Of a stretch of DNA of 36,525 nt, positions 7,988 through 29,866 are shown one piece after another. The translations under genes were made by a program, and so were the position numbers. The stretch spans positions 1 to 36,525 of IMG/VR virus record IMGVR_UViG_3300009506_000217; one strand, 5' to 3'. The notes beneath the pieces were generated by a model. That model did no database searches and was not told the origin of the DNA. It saw only the letters and a program-made list of their open reading frames with translations. Each line of letters opens with the position of its first letter. Position 1 is the first letter of the stretch. This DNA is from a virus.

Positions 7988-8019
7988 AAAAGGCCGGGGG
8001 TGCCGGCCTTTCCTTTTTT
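7988..8019 (+). terminator. Rho-independent terminator after the early left cluster
   Basis: AAGGCCGG / CCGGCCTT stem with a five-base loop, followed by TCCTTTTTT on the plus strand. The opposite strand has four Ts, so it may also stop the converging minus-strand operon whose last gene ends at 8019. Confidence 0.85.
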
Positions 8020-8744
8020 CACATCCCCTCGGGAAGCTGCAAATACTCTTTGCCGTCAAGCAGCCTGCCGCCGTTCTTCGGGCCCCACTGCTTGAAGAAG
8101 AACGGAACGCGGGCAGCTTCGCATTGATCTCGCAATAAGCGAACGCAGTGGGGGGAGATAGGCCGCGCGTTTGGTCCGCTTTCGCCTCCGCAAATCACCC
8201 AATCGATACCGTTTAAGCATGCGCTATAAATTGATTCAAGCATCGGCTCAACCGACACAAAAAGCCCTGCTGCTCCATGCCCAATAGTTTTTAATAAAAA
8301 TACTCTGTCATAAAATTTTAATTGGTTCTCGGCTGTCACCCCGAGCCAAACATTTTTCAGCGGCCAGTAAGCCGGCAGCCGGTCCTTGATGTTTTCCGGC
8401 CGCTTTGTCAGCAGCATATACGTCAAGTGTGGTGTGCGGCGCATGATCTCCCACGCCTCATCACGCCACTGGTCGGCGTCCTCGATGAAGAAGTCAGACC
8501 ACGAGCAAACAAAGACGCGGGCCGGGTCTTTCCACTTCATCGGCGCCGTGAATGTTGCCGGTTTCGATCTGACAACGGTTTCCGGATCTTGCCCGAATCG
8601 TTTCTTGTCGCGGTACATGTAGCAATTCACGCATCCAGGCGAGACTTTCCGGCAGCCTTGCCATGGGTTCCAAGTGTGTCCAGGCTTTACTGTGCCATCC
8701 GGCATAACGGTTTCCGTCCATACAATCGTTGTGTTTTTCCCCAT
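8019..8744 (-). CDS. DUF5131 family protein (phage Gp37/Gp68-like)
   Basis: 241 aa from ATG 8744, with GAGGAAACG upstream. It matches the phage Gp37/Gp68 family (DUF5131): TWNPWQGCRKVSPGCVNCYM near residue 25-43, the Cys pattern GC-x6-GC-x2-CY, FVCSWSDFF, MLLTKRPENI, NVWLGVT, FVSVEPML, WVICGGESG and PFFFKQWG. The three-Cys cluster and fold suggest a radical-SAM-like enzyme, but the substrate is not established. It is the last gene of the replication operon, and its stop abuts a terminator. Length is typical and the gene appears intact. Confidence 0.9.
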   Translation of the reverse strand: MGKNTTIVWTETVMPDGTVKPGHTWNPWQGCRKVSPGCVNCYMYRDKKRFGQDPETVVRSKPATFTAPMKWKDPARVFVCSWSDFFIEDADQWRDEAWEIMRRTPHLTYMLLTKRPENIKDRLPAYWPLKNVWLGVTAENQLKFYDRVFLLKTIGHGAAGLFVSVEPMLESIYSACLNGIDWVICGGESGPNARPISPHCVRLLRDQCEAARVPFFFKQWGPKNGGRLLDGKEYLQLPEGM

Positions 8745-8758
8745 TGCTTCGTTTCCTC

Positions 8759-9085
8759 CTAAACAATCTCAATTTCAAACGGATAAAGCGCCTCAACCTG
8801 TTTTTTCTTCAGCTTGAACTCTTTCGTCTCCATCCCCTTAACGTCGACAAAGTGAACGCTTCCGTCCGCGTGGAACTCCTGGAAGTCAACGCGGTATTTG
8901 ACATTGCCCGGAAGGTCGATCGGGACCTGGCGCAGGAAAAAAAGCACTTGTCCAGCCCTCACCCGAATCAAAAGCGCTTGGTAATATCGCGCCTCTTTTT
9001 TCGAATCGAATTTAATCCCGTTCGCCTCGGTTCTTTGCGCGTTGAACTTGTGCCTTGGTTTTCCGTGAAAGGGTCTTCTATTCAC
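8759..9085 (-). CDS. DUF1064 protein, PD-(D/E)XK-type endonuclease candidate
   Basis: 108 aa starting at GTG 9085 behind GGGAGGG. It fits DUF1064, a small phage nuclease-like family: GIKFDSKKEARYYQAL (conserved E), then KYRVDF, FVDVKGMET and a lysine-rich end. The D/E...D...VKG spacing is the PD-(D/E)XK core. Members sit in phage replication modules and are thought to act on branched or replicating DNA. Here it lies between the DnaC-like loader and the DUF5131 gene, with short gaps (12 and 14 bases). Confidence 0.85.
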   Translation of the reverse strand: MNRRPFHGKPRHKFNAQRTEANGIKFDSKKEARYYQALLIRVRAGQVLFFLRQVPIDLPGNVKYRVDFQEFHADGSVHFVDVKGMETKEFKLKKKQVEALYPFEIEIV

Positions 9086-9097
9086 CCTGCCCTCCCT

Positions 9098-9898
9098 TCA
9101 ATGCCGTAAATTTCGGCGATGCGAAGGCGCGTCAATAATCATAATTGCTCCGTTTTCCTTAAATCGGTCAAAAGCGCGTTCGCCTATGGTAGCCTTCAAC
9201 TCCTTGGGTGACAGATTCCCGCATAAAATCGTAGCCTTAAGCGCGTTGTATCTGTCGTTTATGATTTCGGTCATGAACATCTTCTCGGTTTCGCTGCCGT
9301 GCTGTACGCCTACTTCGTCAATCACCAAGATATCCGGCGCCACAAAGGCCTTGAGAACGTCGCTTTCGTTGCGGTCAGGCCTTTTCCACGACTCTTTGAC
9401 GGCCCTGAAGATCTTGATTGCCTCAACAAACAGGCAAGCGCGCCCATTGGCAAGGAAATGGTTTATCAGCCCTGCTGCAATGTGGGTTTTTCCGGTCCCC
9501 GGCGATCCCAGGAGAATCAAGCCCATGGAATCCTCAGCGTTGTGCGCGAAGTCCCAAGCCGCGTCAACCGCCTTGGAAATGCTTTCGTTTTTAACCGTCA
9601 TGCCTGAAAGCGTTTTTCCCTCAAAACGCTTTGGAATGTGGCAGTTTTCTTTAAGCTTCGCTATCAAAGCATCGTTCTTGATTGCGGCCTGCCTTTGTCT
9701 GGATTCCACGAGAACGTCTGCCCCGCGCTCGTTTTCAATTCGGCACTTTTCACAGGAATAGGCGAAAAAGTCCCCTACCCTGACCGAATCTTTTTTCCTA
9801 TTGTGCTTATGGCAAAAACTGTCTTTTTCCATATCCAGATCTCCTGGGCAGTCGGCTTGTTGAAGCAATACAAACATTTTTCTTTCTCTCGCGTTCAT
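9098..9898 (-). CDS. DnaC-like AAA+ helicase loader
   Basis: 266 aa from ATG 9898, which overlaps the initiator stop (ATGA). It has Walker A GSPGTGKT (about 131-138), Walker B ILVIDEVG (about 190-197) and sensor I CGNLSPKEL; the C-terminal RAFDRFKENG and APSHR supply the arginine-finger region. The N-terminus carries C17, C29-H30, C49 and C52, a likely zinc site seen in some phage DnaC-like proteins. It would load the host DnaB helicase onto the origin opened by the upstream O-like initiator, as lambda P or host DnaC does. The phage encodes no recognisable helicase or polymerase, so host replication proteins are required. Confidence 0.92.
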   Translation of the reverse strand: MNARERKMFVLLQQADCPGDLDMEKDSFCHKHNRKKDSVRVGDFFAYSCEKCRIENERGADVLVESRQRQAAIKNDALIAKLKENCHIPKRFEGKTLSGMTVKNESISKAVDAAWDFAHNAEDSMGLILLGSPGTGKTHIAAGLINHFLANGRACLFVEAIKIFRAVKESWKRPDRNESDVLKAFVAPDILVIDEVGVQHGSETEKMFMTEIINDRYNALKATILCGNLSPKELKATIGERAFDRFKENGAIMIIDAPSHRRNLRH

Positions 9899-10764
9899 TG
9901 TTCCCAATCCTCCAAGCCTTCATAATAGTTTTTTGTGTAAAGGCTTTTTTCTTCTGGATCTGGTGCTGGGCTTGCTCGCTGGTACTGTGCCCAAATCTTG
10001 TCAAACTTCTCGCGTAAGTTGCCGGCGCTTTGAACGGTCACGCCCCAGCCTGGAAACTCATTGGCTCGGCTTGTAGGCCGAATGTCGGTTTTCAGAAATT
10101 CAACAAGCGCCGTTATGTCATCCCACGCCCGTTTGTCGCGTTCGTTCATAAGCCGCATTACGTCGGCCCAGGCGGCTATGGCTTTCTCTCTCCGGTCTGG
10201 TTGCAGCTGTCTGTGATTTGGATGAATCTCCAAAACGTGTTCGGCCAACAAAGCGGCCGCTCGAAGTGCGGCCTCGGGGGTTGTTTTTATATCTTTATAT
10301 CTTTCTTTCTTTCTTATAATAGATGCTTGTCCGTTTTCTCTGACGGTTTTGTCAGATTTCTCTGACGGTTTTGTCAGATTTCTCTGACGGTTTGATACTT
10401 TGCGTTTTTTGTCTATCCATAGGGTATAATCTTTTTGAATTTCAAATGTTTTTTCTCGAAACCGTCCGTTTTCTCTGACGGTTTTGTCAGAGAAATCTGA
10501 CAGCTTGATAATTTTCTTAGTAGCCAAGGCATTAATTGCTTCGTGTATTTGCTGACGCTCAAGGCCGGTTCCGGTCGCTCCCTGGACTCCAGTTTTAAAA
10601 TCATTCGTCCTGAGTTCAACGGTCTTCCGACTGAATCCGTACGTTATCCGGATCAGGAATAGAAACACCTGCCACTCGGAACCGCTCATCCGGACTTGGT
10701 ATGCCGCCGACAGCAGTTCGTTAGAAATCCTTGTGAATCCGTCCTCGAGCTGGGGGTTAGCCAT
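9895..10764 (-). CDS. Lambda O-like replication initiator
   Basis: 289 aa from ATG 10764 (GGAAGG seven bases upstream; the frame is open for 15 codons further, through the terminator hairpin). Residues about 1-50 (NPQLEDGFTRISNELLSAA, MSGSEWQVFLFLIRITYGF) match the phage replication protein O N-terminal domain, a winged helix that binds origin iterons. A linker of about 100-160 is S/T/K-rich and encoded by the iterons themselves (SDKTVRENG appears twice). The C-terminal half (AALLAEHV, AWADVMRLMNERD, EFPGW) would contact the loader. It starts the operon O-DnaC-DUF1064-DUF5131. Confidence 0.92.
   Translation of the reverse strand: MANPQLEDGFTRISNELLSAAYQVRMSGSEWQVFLFLIRITYGFSRKTVELRTNDFKTGVQGATGTGLERQQIHEAINALATKKIIKLSDFSDKTVRENGRFREKTFEIQKDYTLWIDKKRKVSNRQRNLTKPSEKSDKTVRENGQASIIRKKERYKDIKTTPEAALRAAALLAEHVLEIHPNHRQLQPDRREKAIAAWADVMRLMNERDKRAWDDITALVEFLKTDIRPTSRANEFPGWGVTVQSAGNLREKFDKIWAQYQRASPAPDPEEKSLYTKNYYEGLEDWEQ
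10283..10503. other. Putative replication origin: iterons and AT-rich element inside the initiator gene
   Basis: Two perfect tandem 22-bp units (10337-10358, 10359-10380) and a partial third (from 10381) share the core TCTGACGGTTTTGTCAGA, itself an inverted repeat (TCTGAC N6 GTCAGA). A fourth copy is at 10472-10491; bases 10329-10356 and 10464-10491 are 28 bp identical. A pyrimidine/AT-rich stretch follows at 10283-10324. Iterons within the initiator gene next to an AT-rich unwinding region is the lambda ori arrangement. Confidence 0.8.
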
Positions 10765-10794
10765 ATGTCCTTCCGGCTTTATTCCAAAAAATAG

Positions 10795-10846
10795 AAAAGC
10801 CCGCCTCAATTGATCGACTGCGAGGACGATCTTGAGACGGGCTTTT
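10795..10846 (-). terminator. Terminator-like hairpin in the replication-operon leader (attenuator candidate)
   Basis: Fifteen-base arms (AAAAGCCCGCCTCAA at 10795-10809; TTGAGACGGGCTTTT at 10832-10846) pair with one mismatch, with T-rich sequence after it on both strands. It lies between the promoter at 10885-10913 and the initiator ATG at 10764, so it would stop the transcript unless bypassed. The loop contains TGCGAGGACG (10819-10828), the exact complement of 10869-10878 at the expected 5' end of the RNA. Confidence 0.75.
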
Positions 10847-10884
10847 CAACTTTTAACGTGTCTTTTTACGTCCTCGCAAATATG

Positions 10885-10913
10885 AATCTACCGCGCCATT
10901 TGCGCAAAGTCAA
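10885..10913 (-). promoter_or_regulatory. Replication operon promoter with palindromic operator
   Basis: Minus strand TTGACT (10913-10908), 17-base spacer, TAGATT (10890-10885). The perfect palindrome TTTGCGCAAA (10899-10908) lies in the spacer. The expected start, near 10878, places a 10-base arm complementary to the attenuator loop at the RNA 5' end. Confidence 0.65.
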
Positions 10914-12007: not shown

Positions 12008-12035
12008 TTGACTTCTGCACAAATGTGGATATAAT
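12008..12035 (+). promoter_or_regulatory. PR-like promoter, plus strand
   Basis: TTGACT (12008-12013), 16-base spacer, TATAAT (12030-12035), between the divergent repressor and Cro-position genes. The spacer contains CACAAATGTG (CACA/TGTG arms); the opposite strand reads TTTGTGCAGA, similar to motifs at 10899 and 11213. A direct repeat of ATCAAA(A)CAA follows at about 12044-12064. Confidence 0.7.
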
Positions 12036-23752: not shown

Positions 23753-23795
23753 ATGCGTAGTTGCCGCTCTCTATGACTCCGCTTAATTGGATCAT
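23700..23795 (-). pseudogene. Original 5' end of the gene at 23210-23752, out of frame
   Basis: ATG 23795 overlaps the upstream stop (ATGA) and encodes MIQLSGVIESGNYAFAGQAR before ending at TGA 23700. The overlap signal and sensible sequence make it a better start than TTG 23752, which lies in the next frame. Confidence 0.45.
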
Positions 23796-26700
23796 TGCCG
23801 CCACACATACGGACGACGAGGTTTTTTAGGCCGTGGCGTCCATTCTTCTCGAACGTCCTCGCCAGATTCGCGGAGAATAGCTGTCAGGCCGTCGACTTCG
23901 CCCAGCTGATAATCGATCATGAGTCGCAAGGGAATCGGCGCAACGTCCATTGATTCGTCGAATAATACAGTTGGAATGTAGTAGGCAGGGCCTTCCGTTT
24001 CGTTGTATTTACTTGGGGCCGTAAGGTGTCCTGTTCTCCAGGCTTCCTGCCATTTCAGATAGGGCTTGTCCTGCCAGTTGCGGCCGGAAATCAATCGATC
24101 TACTGCGCCCGGAGCCCAAGCGGCCTTATTTCGAAAAAAGCCTAAAGGATCAGTGGCAAGCTTGACCGGATCGTCAAACTGTTGAAGAGGCATAAGCGAT
24201 ACGCGCCCCCCTTGGTGTTTTACGCCAAGGTGTTCATATATTTTACTTATGTCCCACGCGAAAGCCGGAGAATGCAAAACCTTTTTTAGTTTTCCTTCTC
24301 GCTTAACTGTTTTTACCGTCTTCCCGAATCGCTTTTTTGTATCATCCCAGCCGTTCAAGGCAATGTTCGCCAAAATAGTTGCTAGAATTCCATAGGCGAG
24401 GGCGCCGCCTAAAAACTTAAGATAAATCTTGTCCATGCCGTCCATCTTCGGCCCGTCGCCCTTCTTGCCTCCGCGTCCAAAAGTGTTTTGCCCACCTTCG
24501 GCAAGAAGCAACCCCTCACGCAAAATATGGTTTGCCACTCTTTCGATAAGTGGAACTGTCTTAATGTTTGATTCCGTCCAATCCGGAGCCAGGAAAATAA
24601 ATCCACGCTCAAGATCCAGCATGGTTTTGCTTCTGCCTATGCGCCCCCAATGAAGCCCTCCGTAATCGTTGTTTATTAATTGGGCCATGGCTTTTGCTAT
24701 TTCGTCGGCTTCATCGTCCGTGGGCGCCCTGTTGTTTTTCTTTTGGAATTTGTCAACGGCATGTTTGAATTCAAGCGCAAACGACTGCGCTTTCAATCCG
24801 GTCTGAAACCGCAGGAAAAGACTATCAGTGAATTCTTCCATCACCTTTGATGCGGCCGACAATGGTGCTTTCCTAGCAGACATCATCAATTTCCTCTGCC
24901 TGTTAAGCATTGCCTTATCCCATTCAGGGATTTTGAAAAGCGTCAACCCGTTGCGGATTCCAAGCCGGATAATCGGGTCCATGGACATAGCCATTTCATA
25001 GCCTTCTTTTGCCGCCTTCCATGGCGCAATAGGCCCGCCTTTTTCCCATGGTCTGGTTCCCAGCAAATAAGACTTTGCAAGCGCCTTGTGGTGGAAGAAC
25101 GAGCCCGAGAACAGCAAAGACTTGCGATAACTAGACAGCTTGACAATGCCGCCGCCAAGCTTCCAAGCGGCATTCTTGGTCGGATCAAAGAACGCTGACG
25201 GGTCATACATCGCATTGATGTGATCCGCCCAAAGCCGGGGAGCATAAAGCTTTCTTTTTTCAAAAACCGTTATTATGTCCCCATGCTGAGTGATGAAAGT
25301 ATTCTTTGTGCCTATATCCTTATCAGCCAAAAGCTTAACAAGCTGGTCATGCAATGGCTTGTTCACGCTTTCGACATACTCAAGCCCTTTTGGAATTCCG
25401 CGCTGATAAGGCGCTTCAACTCCAGCATAGGAGACCGCCTCCTTAAAGGGCTTTAAATTGATTGAAAACGACGGTACATAGTCATGAAAATTAGGATGAT
25501 GCAGTTCTTTGTAGTCGCCGCCGTGGCTGTCGATCGAGAAAAACGGCCGCCCCTCTGCATCCTTCATTGTCCGGGCAATGCTGATCAATTCGCGGTCGGC
25601 AAGCGTGTTGCCATGCTCTTTGATAAGCTCTGCCTTCGCATTTGACAGCCCGCGGACTCTTGGACGATAGCCAAGGCGCAGACCTTCGAAATAGCTATCG
25701 AATACTCTTTGCTTGGCGTGTTTTGATTTCGTGGCGAACCGCGCCCGGTAACTCTTGCCGCGCTTGCCCTTAGGGTCAATCCAGTATCTCGGAGAATAAT
25801 GCGCTATTACAGAAGAGATCAAACCCGCGTCCATTGCATCGCGTCCGAGCTGCTGCATTTCGGTTTCAATTCGATTTACATATTTTGTAAGCCCAGGGTG
25901 CTTGCCTTCGTGGATTTCAATTCCAAACTCAATCAGCCTGGCCGTGTCCTCATTTTGGGCGCCGCCTTCTTCCCTCAATTCTTTAATAGCCCACCGGGCA
26001 TCTTCGAGGCCGGAAAGCTGTATGCCCTCACGGTGGACCTTTTGTTCCGGATTCAGCGATTCAGAGCGCCTAATTTCCACGGTAATGCGCGCCGCCTCGT
26101 CTGCTGCGTCAACATATCTGGAGGGCTTGCCGGTTCCAGCTGAAGCGAAGCGGAAAGGCGCCGGCCGCTTTTTGTAGAGTGCCCCGACCGCACGGCCAAG
26201 CTCTTCGCGGTCTTTTAGCCTGCCGACCATCGCGGCGTTTTCCGTGAGATCCTGCATCCCAATATGACGGCTTAGAATATCCCGACCAGTTGCCGCCTTG
26301 CCGAGTTCTGTTTTGATGGCTTCGCCGTGGGTGAACTTGTCTAATAGATTGCTGGTAAAGAATCCTTTTTCTGTCGTGTATGCCCTGGTTGTTGCGTCAA
26401 CGATCTTGCCGCGTTCTGTCTGTATCGCGTCCCAAATCCCGCCGAGTCCGCTGCCGAGAACTACGCCGCCGCCACCGCTTTTGGTCCTCGCTTTCCCTTC
26501 GTCTGGCGGCTTGATTTCAATAACGCCAGCTTCTTTTCCAGTTCCCGCTACTTTTTGTGACGCAATGCGTGATTCTTTGGCGCGGAGTTCTGGGTAGTCG
26601 GCTAATACGTTCTCTGGTACTGGTTTGCCTTCGGATAATGCTTTTTCGATTTCAATTTTGTGAGAAGTTTTTCCAACGATCCATTTTTTAGGGATTTCTT

Positions 26701-29700
26701 CTGTTTGAGCGTATCTTTCTTCATTCAAAGATAGATTAGCATCTTCAGGAATACTAATTTTTAAAATATCATCGTTCTTGCCAGCAAACTCTTCAGCCTG
26801 TTGTAGCGTTTCAAATAATGCAACATTTTCTGCATCTGCCGACGCTTCATACCCAGGGTAATCTTCTCCCCATCTAGGAGCAACGTCTTCGCCTAACGCT
26901 TTCCTGGCGTTTAAAGATAAGATATCCCCACCGTCCCATTTCCCCTGAGTTGCATGGTAATATGTTCCTGCTTTTGGTCTTTCTAAAGATCTGTTTTTAA
27001 CTACTTGCCGCCTAACCCCATCTTTTATGAATTCTGTTCGAGTCATCTCCCAAGGCTGTTTTTCTTCTGCCACGACAGTTTCAGCCATTGGCTCAGGAGA
27101 AACCGACAAAACCGCTTCCGACGCTATGCCGAGTTTCGCTTTTGCATTATCGACAGATCGCTGAACAGCTGAAAGCGCCCCAGGAGACATCTTTTTGCCA
27201 ATAGTGTTGCGCCCGCTTTTAAGGATTAATTCGCCTTCCATGATTGCGTTTTTTAGCTGCTGTCTTCTTGCGGCATCTGTTTCTATTTTAACCGGCGCTA
27301 TTTCTTCTTGCATTGGTGCTTGTTCAAAAAGCCCACCCTGCCGCGCCTCAGCCTCCATCTTCTTCTGAAGCGCATCCCCAGGCGTTCCTTGCTCCAGCTT
27401 CCCTCCGAACATCGGAAGATCAGAGACGCCCTTTTGAGGCGGTCTATCGCCCAGGTTTTCGCCGCCTTCGAGCGTCAATTGTATGCCGCCCTGGGAAAGA
27501 GCCTTTTCACGTTCAAGCCGCGCTCTTAACTCGTCAACGCTTTCCGGCTTCTTTCCCCGAACGTGGCTCCCTCGGTCAATTGGTATTTCACCATTAAAAC
27601 CATTGACTCGATGAACGTCGTGATCTTTCAACAGAATGTCGGTTCCGTCCATCTCTGTTGCAATGTGCGGCTCTCCGTTAATCGTCACGCTGTCGCCAAG
27701 TTCAATATCGCTGCCATCAAGGCGCTCTGGAGTGTATTTCAAGATCGTGCGCGTTTCCTCGGCAGCATGTATCACGAACTCGAGTTCGCGCGGGGATAGC
27801 GCCTCGCCGTCATAAGCTTTTCGCAAAGCTTCTTTTGCTTGTTTGCCGGTAAGGTTTTTGTTGGGACGTGATTGGAAATAATCAGGGTATGTAGACTGCA
27901 ACCGCTCTCCGGTTGGATTCCCTTCATCATCCAAGACCTTTGTTCCCCATTCGTGGCCTGATAAATCATGGGGCGAGGGGATAAACTCTCTAAGGGCAGC
28001 AGGAACAGCCCTAAGGTTTTCCTGCTGTGCTTCCATTGGCTTTTCGCCCAACCGCGAAGGCCCTTCAACATAATCGCGCAACTCGGCGGGCGTGAAGTCT
28101 TCAATTGCCGCGTTGACCGCTGGCGAGTCGCCATACTCTTTCGCGGCCCTGGCCTTTGCTTCCGTGAGAAGCTGCTGCCTTTCCTCTTCAGCCGCAGCCT
28201 TAAGTTTTTCAACGGTTTGAAGATAGCCTTCACGCACCCGCGCCCGCGCCGTCGCTGCAGCCCTTTCCGGCGTTCCCTGATCAATAGGAACTGGCGTAAT
28301 GTCCTTTGGTTCAACAGGCGTCCGCGTTGCTGCTTCACTGGTATAAACGCCTTCGCCGACAAGGCCGCTTGGAATCTGACGACCATATGTCGCTCGCGGC
28401 ATCTTGCTTTCAGGGTAAATTGTCGGGGTTTCGCCTGGCGGTCCTGGCAAGCCTTGCGCCGGCTGCAGCCTTGTGGTTGTAAGCGGCGTCCCTTCAGGTA
28501 TGTTTTGCGGCCCTGTGGTTGGTATTAATCGTGGCCCTATTGGCGCCTCTGGCGGCGGTTCAGTTGGCACAAGATCCATTCCGGTTGCTTCGGTTGGTGG
28601 CTCCGCTGGCGGCAATTGGCCTTGTGGCCGCAGGTGGTTTAGATCCTTATAATAGTTTATTTCAGGGATGCGCGGGGACGTGGCACCCTTAACCGCGCCA
28701 AAAGCAAAGCCCGTTCCGGCACCCTGTAAAAAATCCCTTAGATATTGAGACAGGGCTTCTGGATTAGTCAGATATTCAAATCTTTTTTCTTCGGGAAGAA
28801 GGGCAAGCGCATCCCCTGCGCGGTTTGCGACTGAAATTGCCGTTGTTTTTATGCCTAAAGATGTAGATTCTGTTAACGCTGCCTGCAAAATAAACCTTGC
28901 TCTTGATTCCCCATATTTTAAAACAAGATTTTTTCCGGCAGGCGACGAAAGAAGAACCCCGGTAAGGATGCCGATCGCGGGCGCAAGCATTTTGGCTTTT
29001 GTCTCCGTGCCAAGCATGACGCTGGCGCGTGGATCGTCAATCATGCGCATGTACGCGGAGCCACCTTCCGTTGCTGCCAAACCTGGAATCCCGCCCGCAT
29101 CGGCTACCAACAGAGTAGGAAGAAAGCCGGTTACCTCTTCAAGGACTGTCTGCAACGGTTCCTCTTTAAGCTTCCGACCCATTGGCGCGTTTTCCGTTTC
29201 GGAAACCTTTATTTTGCTGGCCGCGTCGCTTAAGTTTCTACTTAACTCGCCAATGGATTTATACCTTTTCCCTCCGGTAGCATCTGAAACTACATCGTCA
29301 AGCCATTTGAAAGCACCAACAAAACCCGCCCCTTTTTGTAGGCTTGCCTTCCCAAACTTCTTTAAAACTCTTGCCGGTGGATAAGCCGACGGCGTTTCCA
29401 TAAATTTGTCGACGGCCGATTTCTCTTCGAAATCTCCATGGCTATAACGTAGTGAGCTGTCTCCAGAATAAAGCTCTGGCGGCGGCCTTGGTGGCGTAGG
29501 CGGTGGGTTGAGGATTTCGTTTATTGCCTGCTTGCCCCTTTCCACGCGCTCAGACAGATCTTGTTTAAATGCTCCAATTGTCCCGCTGCCAAAGGGGGTA
29601 TCTGTGGGCAGAACTCCCGCCATGTCATCGACAAGCCCGCCGACAGCCTCGCCAGCGCGGCGAAGCAGTCCAGGTTTGCCGATCATTTCAGTCCTGAAAT

Positions 29701-29866
29701 TGATCCAGGCTTGCTGCTTTTTCTCACGAGGAAGGGCGTCAAACTCAGGCGATGTAAGTTTCGTCTGAAAGAAATTCCATGCGGCCGTCTCTTGATCTCC
29801 ATAACCAAAATCTGAGGTTTTAAGAGAGTTCTTGAATCCGTCTATTTCGCGCTTGGTGACAGCCAT
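23792..29866 (-). CDS. Very large internal virion / ejection protein (polyvalent type)
   Basis: 2024 aa from ATG 29866, one base after the previous stop. Layout: N-terminal about 1-60 helical (FKNSLKTSDFGYGDQETAAWNFF pattern); hydrophobic segment near 300; a P/T/E-rich linker (about 420-520); a coiled region (about 540-600); a block near 885-915 (AIMEGELILKSGRNTIGKKMSP) typical of phage polyvalent proteins; about 965-1060, YYHATQGKWDGGDIL...ALFETLQQAEEFA...ILKISIPE, which resembles an ADP-ribosyltransferase-like fold; a long helical remainder; and a hydrophobic stretch (about 1815-1835, GALAYGILATILANIAL). Such proteins are packaged in the head and ejected to form a conduit or act in the host. 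Activity unproven. Confidence 0.75.
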   Translation of the reverse strand: MAVTKREIDGFKNSLKTSDFGYGDQETAAWNFFQTKLTSPEFDALPREKKQQAWINFRTEMIGKPGLLRRAGEAVGGLVDDMAGVLPTDTPFGSGTIGAFKQDLSERVERGKQAINEILNPPPTPPRPPPELYSGDSSLRYSHGDFEEKSAVDKFMETPSAYPPARVLKKFGKASLQKGAGFVGAFKWLDDVVSDATGGKRYKSIGELSRNLSDAASKIKVSETENAPMGRKLKEEPLQTVLEEVTGFLPTLLVADAGGIPGLAATEGGSAYMRMIDDPRASVMLGTETKAKMLAPAIGILTGVLLSSPAGKNLVLKYGESRARFILQAALTESTSLGIKTTAISVANRAGDALALLPEEKRFEYLTNPEALSQYLRDFLQGAGTGFAFGAVKGATSPRIPEINYYKDLNHLRPQGQLPPAEPPTEATGMDLVPTEPPPEAPIGPRLIPTTGPQNIPEGTPLTTTRLQPAQGLPGPPGETPTIYPESKMPRATYGRQIPSGLVGEGVYTSEAATRTPVEPKDITPVPIDQGTPERAAATARARVREGYLQTVEKLKAAAEEERQQLLTEAKARAAKEYGDSPAVNAAIEDFTPAELRDYVEGPSRLGEKPMEAQQENLRAVPAALREFIPSPHDLSGHEWGTKVLDDEGNPTGERLQSTYPDYFQSRPNKNLTGKQAKEALRKAYDGEALSPRELEFVIHAAEETRTILKYTPERLDGSDIELGDSVTINGEPHIATEMDGTDILLKDHDVHRVNGFNGEIPIDRGSHVRGKKPESVDELRARLEREKALSQGGIQLTLEGGENLGDRPPQKGVSDLPMFGGKLEQGTPGDALQKKMEAEARQGGLFEQAPMQEEIAPVKIETDAARRQQLKNAIMEGELILKSGRNTIGKKMSPGALSAVQRSVDNAKAKLGIASEAVLSVSPEPMAETVVAEEKQPWEMTRTEFIKDGVRRQVVKNRSLERPKAGTYYHATQGKWDGGDILSLNARKALGEDVAPRWGEDYPGYEASADAENVALFETLQQAEEFAGKNDDILKISIPEDANLSLNEERYAQTEEIPKKWIVGKTSHKIEIEKALSEGKPVPENVLADYPELRAKESRIASQKVAGTGKEAGVIEIKPPDEGKARTKSGGGGVVLGSGLGGIWDAIQTERGKIVDATTRAYTTEKGFFTSNLLDKFTHGEAIKTELGKAATGRDILSRHIGMQDLTENAAMVGRLKDREELGRAVGALYKKRPAPFRFASAGTGKPSRYVDAADEAARITVEIRRSESLNPEQKVHREGIQLSGLEDARWAIKELREEGGAQNEDTARLIEFGIEIHEGKHPGLTKYVNRIETEMQQLGRDAMDAGLISSVIAHYSPRYWIDPKGKRGKSYRARFATKSKHAKQRVFDSYFEGLRLGYRPRVRGLSNAKAELIKEHGNTLADRELISIARTMKDAEGRPFFSIDSHGGDYKELHHPNFHDYVPSFSINLKPFKEAVSYAGVEAPYQRGIPKGLEYVESVNKPLHDQLVKLLADKDIGTKNTFITQHGDIITVFEKRKLYAPRLWADHINAMYDPSAFFDPTKNAAWKLGGGIVKLSSYRKSLLFSGSFFHHKALAKSYLLGTRPWEKGGPIAPWKAAKEGYEMAMSMDPIIRLGIRNGLTLFKIPEWDKAMLNRQRKLMMSARKAPLSAASKVMEEFTDSLFLRFQTGLKAQSFALEFKHAVDKFQKKNNRAPTDDEADEIAKAMAQLINNDYGGLHWGRIGRSKTMLDLERGFIFLAPDWTESNIKTVPLIERVANHILREGLLLAEGGQNTFGRGGKKGDGPKMDGMDKIYLKFLGGALAYGILATILANIALNGWDDTKKRFGKTVKTVKREGKLKKVLHSPAFAWDISKIYEHLGVKHQGGRVSLMPLQQFDDPVKLATDPLGFFRNKAAWAPGAVDRLISGRNWQDKPYLKWQEAWRTGHLTAPSKYNETEGPAYYIPTVLFDESMDVAPIPLRLMIDYQLGEVDGLTAILRESGEDVREEWTPRPKKPRRPYVWRQ

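Follow-up and report, generated by a model that had tools for sequence, protein, structure and literature searches.

Immediately upstream of the replication initiator gene of this virus, a promoter-like site is followed by a terminator-like hairpin (10847-10794, minus strand), after which the gene starts. This raises the question of whether the operon is controlled by an attenuator in its 5' leader RNA, in which the beginning of the transcript pairs with part of the terminator. The window, that is, the whole stretch of DNA that was analysed, is a 36,525-base virus record.

The Replication Operon and Its Surroundings

The first gene of the operon (9895-10764, minus strand, with its ATG at 10764) is by its sequence a lambda-O-type replication initiator, matching PF04492 (Phage_rep_O) with a Pfam E value of 1.6e-14. 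A Shine-Dalgarno-like GGAAGGA precedes it at 10768-10774. On the same strand follow a DnaC/IstB-type helicase loader (9098-9907) and a DUF1064 or phage Holliday-junction-resolvase-type nuclease (8759-9085), both assigned by protein similarity, and, after the replication genes, a DUF5131 gene (8019-8744). A repeat search of the initiator gene found iteron-like TCTGACGGTTTTGTCAGA repeats at 10329-10514 (plus strand), present in both orientations, which are a probable replication origin. An initiator with an O domain, iterons inside its gene and then a helicase loader make up a lambda-O-type replication module. Elsewhere in the window, an open frame of 2024 amino acids (23792-29866, minus strand) is exceptionally long given the size of the phage.

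Upstream of the operon, a leftward set of genes running from about 12,090 includes an HTH regulator (11974-11567, minus strand), and two small open frames separate the regulator from the replication genes. Three successive terminator-like hairpins occur along this stretch on the minus strand. The one farthest upstream (11258-11227) consists of GGTGGCGACT...GGTCGCCACT followed by a T run, the second (10982-10959) ends the unit that is transcribed ahead of the leader, and the third is the hairpin before the initiator. An antitermination system acting over these hairpins is possible.

The Predicted Promoter and Its Spacer

An earlier note on this DNA had placed a promoter at 10885-10913, and a site is indeed present there on the minus strand, after the second hairpin. 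Its hexamers, TTGACT and TAGATT, are separated by 17 nucleotides and match in 9 of 12 positions, so that a sigma-70 promoter is plausible, while the promoter score taken alone is near chance (9 sites found in comparison with 5.4 +/- 2.2 expected in shuffles). The segment designated seqA, or A, begins 7 nucleotides past the -10 hexamer, where the RNA would be expected to start.

The spacer of this promoter contains TGCGCAAATG (10897-10906, minus strand), which has 9 of 10 positions in common with the spacer of the strong rightward promoter at 12008-12035 (plus strand). The common form, TGCRCAAATG, was obtained in 75 of 5000 shuffles. In both promoters, TTGACTT(N)TGCRCAAATG spans the -35 hexamer and the spacer. 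These matches hint weakly at a protein site in the spacer, and a common operator or regulator for both promoters is possible. The motif overlaps the palindrome TTTGCGCAAA (10899-10908), which had been put forward as a protein control point. The palindrome occurs in one exact copy, and its near matches with at most two mismatches are no commoner than expected (33 versus 42). It is not significant alone and was rejected as a regulator site by itself.

Complementarity Between the Predicted RNA Start and the Terminator Loop

The hairpin before the initiator, GAAAAGCCCGTCTCAAGATCG / CGATCAATTGAGGCGGGCTTTTC, has a G+C-rich stem followed directly by a U-rich run (10785-10793, minus strand; TATTTTTTG; tail CTATTTTTTGG), which are the features of an intrinsic (Rho-independent) terminator. 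The folding energy of the leader is -39.3 kcal/mol (z = -5.6), and none of 200 shuffles was equally stable, which bears out the strong terminator proposed ahead of the initiator ATG.

The proposed complementarity between the 5' end of the RNA and the loop of this terminator is also borne out. seqA, the 5'-terminal arm of the predicted RNA (10869-10878, minus strand), reads TGCGAGGACG, and seqB (B), which occupies the terminator's loop and the tip of its stem (10819-10828, minus strand), reads CGTCCTCGCA. The two form an exact inverted repeat of 10 nucleotides, extended by one flanking G-U pair, and the full A and B are found nowhere else in the window. Dinucleotide shuffling of the 38-nucleotide 5' segment produced a 10-nucleotide match in 2 of 40,000 and 1 of 10,000 cases. 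The A:B pair is well supported as real by any test available.

Folding of the Leader

The earlier note regarded the two structures as mutually exclusive. In the window, however, they overlap only at the tip of the stem, where A:B uses just two bases of the 5' strand and competes with a 5-bp tip. When the B bases were forced to remain unpaired, the hairpin kept 15 bp at -22.5 kcal/mol, compared to -29.8 kcal/mol when free. Because these 15 bp survive, formation of A:B does not preclude the terminator here, and the two may coexist as a pseudoknot, which by rough arithmetic would be about equal in stability.

RNA ending at the loop has a folding energy of -21.8 kcal/mol, compared to -9.9 +/- 2.6 kcal/mol in shuffles, none of which (0 of 500) was as stable. 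In folds of the growing transcript, A:B is dominant (-22 kcal/mol) from the synthesis of B until the 3' arm of the terminator emerges, after which the terminator wins at -31 to -39 kcal/mol. The same order, with A:B first and the hairpin later, was obtained for the leaders of three other phages described below (L025, L037 and L086).

A third segment, seqC (C), is at best weak in the window. The candidate, CGAGGACG (10740-10747, minus strand), is complementary to seqB over 8 nucleotides, a match that arose in 104 of 10,000 shuffles. It lies in conserved codons 6-9 of O (L-E-D-G), and the match may be a coincidence because LEDG is conserved among O proteins. seqB also matches the AGGAC of the Shine-Dalgarno region over 5 nucleotides.

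Leaders of Other O Genes

Close relatives of the phage were not found among IMG/VR, INPHARED, PLSDB or GTDB genomes. When relatives of the O, DnaC and terminase proteins were sought in IMG/VR, INPHARED and GTDB, none for O was closer than approximately 25-43%, which precluded a direct covariation test of the window's own leader. Searches of phages, plasmids and the records of relatives with the DNA of the leader gave no useful match, blastn against phages gave none, and Rfam yielded weak chance matches, none at gathering scores, in the window or its relatives. One exact match to the A/B pattern in IMG/VR (L011) was dismissed as chance; it lies inside high-G+C coding sequence and outside any hairpin context.

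Approximately 55 different leaders of O genes, taken from phages and prophages, were compared by layout. In the majority of cases there is no leader, because O directly follows another gene. The same layout with different sequences is nevertheless present in three other phage O-gene leaders. In L025 (IMGVR 3300020005_000011), a promoter with TGTTATAAT is followed by A (GTCCGGTCA) and by a terminator whose stem arms are GCCCCGC/GCGGGGTTTT and whose loop holds B (TGACCGGAC), and then by a frame of 50 amino acids and O. Its A:B match arose in 2 of 10,000 shuffles, and the leader contains no C. A single base separates B from the 3' arm of the L025 terminator; from this geometry, A:B and the terminator should exclude each other there.

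The other two leaders are from phages whose O proteins are 42% identical across 144 residues. In L037 (3300037424_000280), A (AACTCGCTAG, 892) precedes a 16-bp hairpin with B (CTAGCGAGTT, 946), followed by C (AACTCGCTAG, 987) and the ATG at 1001. In L086 (3300002231_000784), A (TACCCCGCAAA, 1394) precedes a 15-bp hairpin with B (TTTGCGGGGTA, 1448), followed by C (AACCCCGCAA, 1489) and the ATG at 1501. In each case C is a third copy in the same sense as A and immediately upstream of the O start codon; the direct copies A and C flank the hairpin (L037, 892-1001; L086, 1394-1501), and C takes the place of the Shine-Dalgarno sequence. Between the two leaders, the stem is paired at 15 of 15 positions with nine two-sided changes and A:B at 10 of 10 with four, while C:B is paired at 10 of 10 positions in L037 and 9 of 10 in L086 with five. 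A, B and C change together and therefore match the prediction of pairing. This covariation comes from a single comparison of two phages, aligned by hand and found after about 50 leaders had been examined. The reappearance of the layout ahead of O genes in other phages, with compensatory changes in the covarying pair, and its presence in L025 support an RNA-level role of A:B.

The pairing may act differently in L037 and L086 than in the window, since the U-rich run there follows A:B and not the hairpin. Because C also covers the ribosome site, translation control may by analogy be weightier in these two phages. The L037 phage additionally carries a terminase-like frame of 872 amino acids (L068, 3329-5947, minus strand) with an insert containing LAEGT and DGDG and ending in VVHN, after which the terminase resumes; judged from its translation, the frame appears to harbour an intein.

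A crude scan for complements of at least 9 nucleotides between loops and flanks was positive in 3 of 47 leaders versus 11 of 504 background tiles, the latter count including the window leader and the iterons, so the enrichment is suggestive only. Counting A-B-C arrangements of 8-mers was discarded as a general test; it is unspecific and scores iteron arrays too.

Comparison With Known Systems

To our knowledge, RNAs that regulate a phage operon through upstream, loop and downstream copies of one pairing sequence are confined to very few systems, namely CI of P4 and C4 of P1 and P7. The inverted-repeat search was also run on the P4 immunity leader as a control, where it recovered TTCACAGG at 8651 and 8384 and CCTGTGAA at 8463; we take the matches at 8651, 8463 and 8384 to be the published seqA, seqB and seqC, respectively. 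A structured RNA whose seqB is complementary to an upstream seqA is present in the window, L025, L037 and L086, as in P4, and L037 and L086 also have the downstream C. In P4, the replication genes are kept off by premature termination, and the CI RNA pairs with the upstream seqA and downstream seqC (PMC4825925). The window likewise has a leader that belongs to a replication operon, here by position only, with premature termination as the expected output. In contrast to P4, the loop that carries B belongs to an intrinsic terminator in the window and L025, A is at or near the RNA start, the distance from A to B in the window is 50 nucleotides rather than about 190, the operon is of the O/DnaC type rather than one for an alpha primase, and C is weak in the window. 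Neither blastn in phages nor Rfam shows a sequence relation. The layout appears to be of the P4 seqA-seqB-seqC kind, and the leader may work like P4 CI or C4; membership of either family is not claimed.

C4, too, is short and structured and has complementary segments in its loops; its target is near a ribosome site, as is C in L037 and L086. Its target, however, is ant, which encodes an antirepressor, rather than replication genes, and the C4 Rfam family had no match in the window or its relatives. The leaders of pT181 and pIP501 resemble the window in that a terminator precedes an initiator gene and an upstream segment pairs with part of it. In pT181, the pre-emptor pairs with the 5' arm of the terminator and decides read-through (PMC5703833). 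In the window, A pairs with the loop and two bases of the stem while the lower 15 bp can still form, so that A does not exclude the terminator as a pre-emptor would. Moreover, a separately transcribed antisense RNA decides the outcome in these plasmids, whereas the window has only weak promoter matches on the plus strand. In lambda and phi80, a small RNA, oop, with its terminator lies immediately upstream of O; oop is antisense to the O operon, while the leader in the window runs sense.

Alternative Explanations

An ordinary promoter followed by a strong, roughly bidirectional insulating terminator, with the A:B match incidental or only stabilising, would agree with the two further terminators just upstream, with a lower stem that A:B leaves untouched and with the rarity of such leaders among O genes. 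It seems unlikely, however: 10 exact nucleotides at the predicted RNA start amount to an event of about 1 in 10,000, and the layout recurs in three more O leaders, with compensatory changes in two. A terminator directly after the operon's own promoter would also be odd unless it were regulatory. A and B might instead be an inverted pair of regulator sites in the DNA, with centres about 50 bp apart and the hairpin a separate terminator. Inverted pairs are frequent among regulator sites, A overlaps the transcription start region and the spacer motif recurs at the rightward promoter. This account is nonetheless very improbable, given that no other full copy of A or B exists in the window, that B lies in a hairpin loop in four phages and that the stem covaries too in L037 and L086.

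A translational switch similar to that of P1 and P7, in which B in the loop binds C, the start region of O, and keeps ribosomes away while A competes with C for B, would explain why C in L037 and L086 matches B directly before the ATG, and the matches of B in the window to O codons 6-9 and the Shine-Dalgarno region could be read in the same way. C4 itself blocks translation around the ribosome site (PMC12197685). For the window this is improbable: its C is short and in codons fixed by the protein, the good terminator tail on the hairpin points to transcription, and L025 has no C. It is more improbable still that the hairpin chiefly terminates an oop-like antisense transcript that leaves the O gene on the plus strand. 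The hairpin is almost symmetrical, phi80 and lambda carry an oop-type RNA at this place, and promoter-like sites occur on the plus strand at 10484-10512 (10 of 12) and 10371-10399. These sites, however, arise from the iteron-like repeats, the plus-strand tail (AACTTTTAAC) makes a poorer terminator than the minus-strand one, and A is left unexplained.

A Possible Attenuator and Its Implications

Overall, we give about even credence to the reading of the 5' leader as an RNA attenuator of the replication operon that uses A:B. Transcription would start at approximately 10881-10877, and A, at the 5' end, would pair with B over 10-11 bp as soon as B has been transcribed. The 3' arm of the terminator would emerge next and either displace A:B at the tip or join it in a pseudoknot. 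Should the terminator prevail soon enough, transcription would stop near 10785-10790 and leave a short RNA of about 90 nucleotides, and O, the loader and the nuclease would not be made. If A:B slows the terminator, the polymerase would read through; both this effect and its direction we infer. The short RNA would expose B in its loop and could capture the A of new transcripts, favouring termination as the P4 CI RNA does, so that the leader RNA may act in trans.

A broader proposal is that several unrelated phages with O-type genes share a leader RNA of the A-B-C type, which in its short, terminated form blocks replication in trans. This would be immunity or copy control of the P4 CI type outside the P4-like satellites, with divergent pairing sequences setting the specificity of immunity. 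We regard this proposal as tentative and somewhat doubtful. If it is true, A-B-C control before lambda-O-type genes that have no leader sequence in common would mean that this type of regulation is more widely spread and diverges readily. It would also provide a search rule that is independent of sequence, namely to look ahead of a replication initiator for a hairpin whose loop is complementary to the 5' end of the same RNA.
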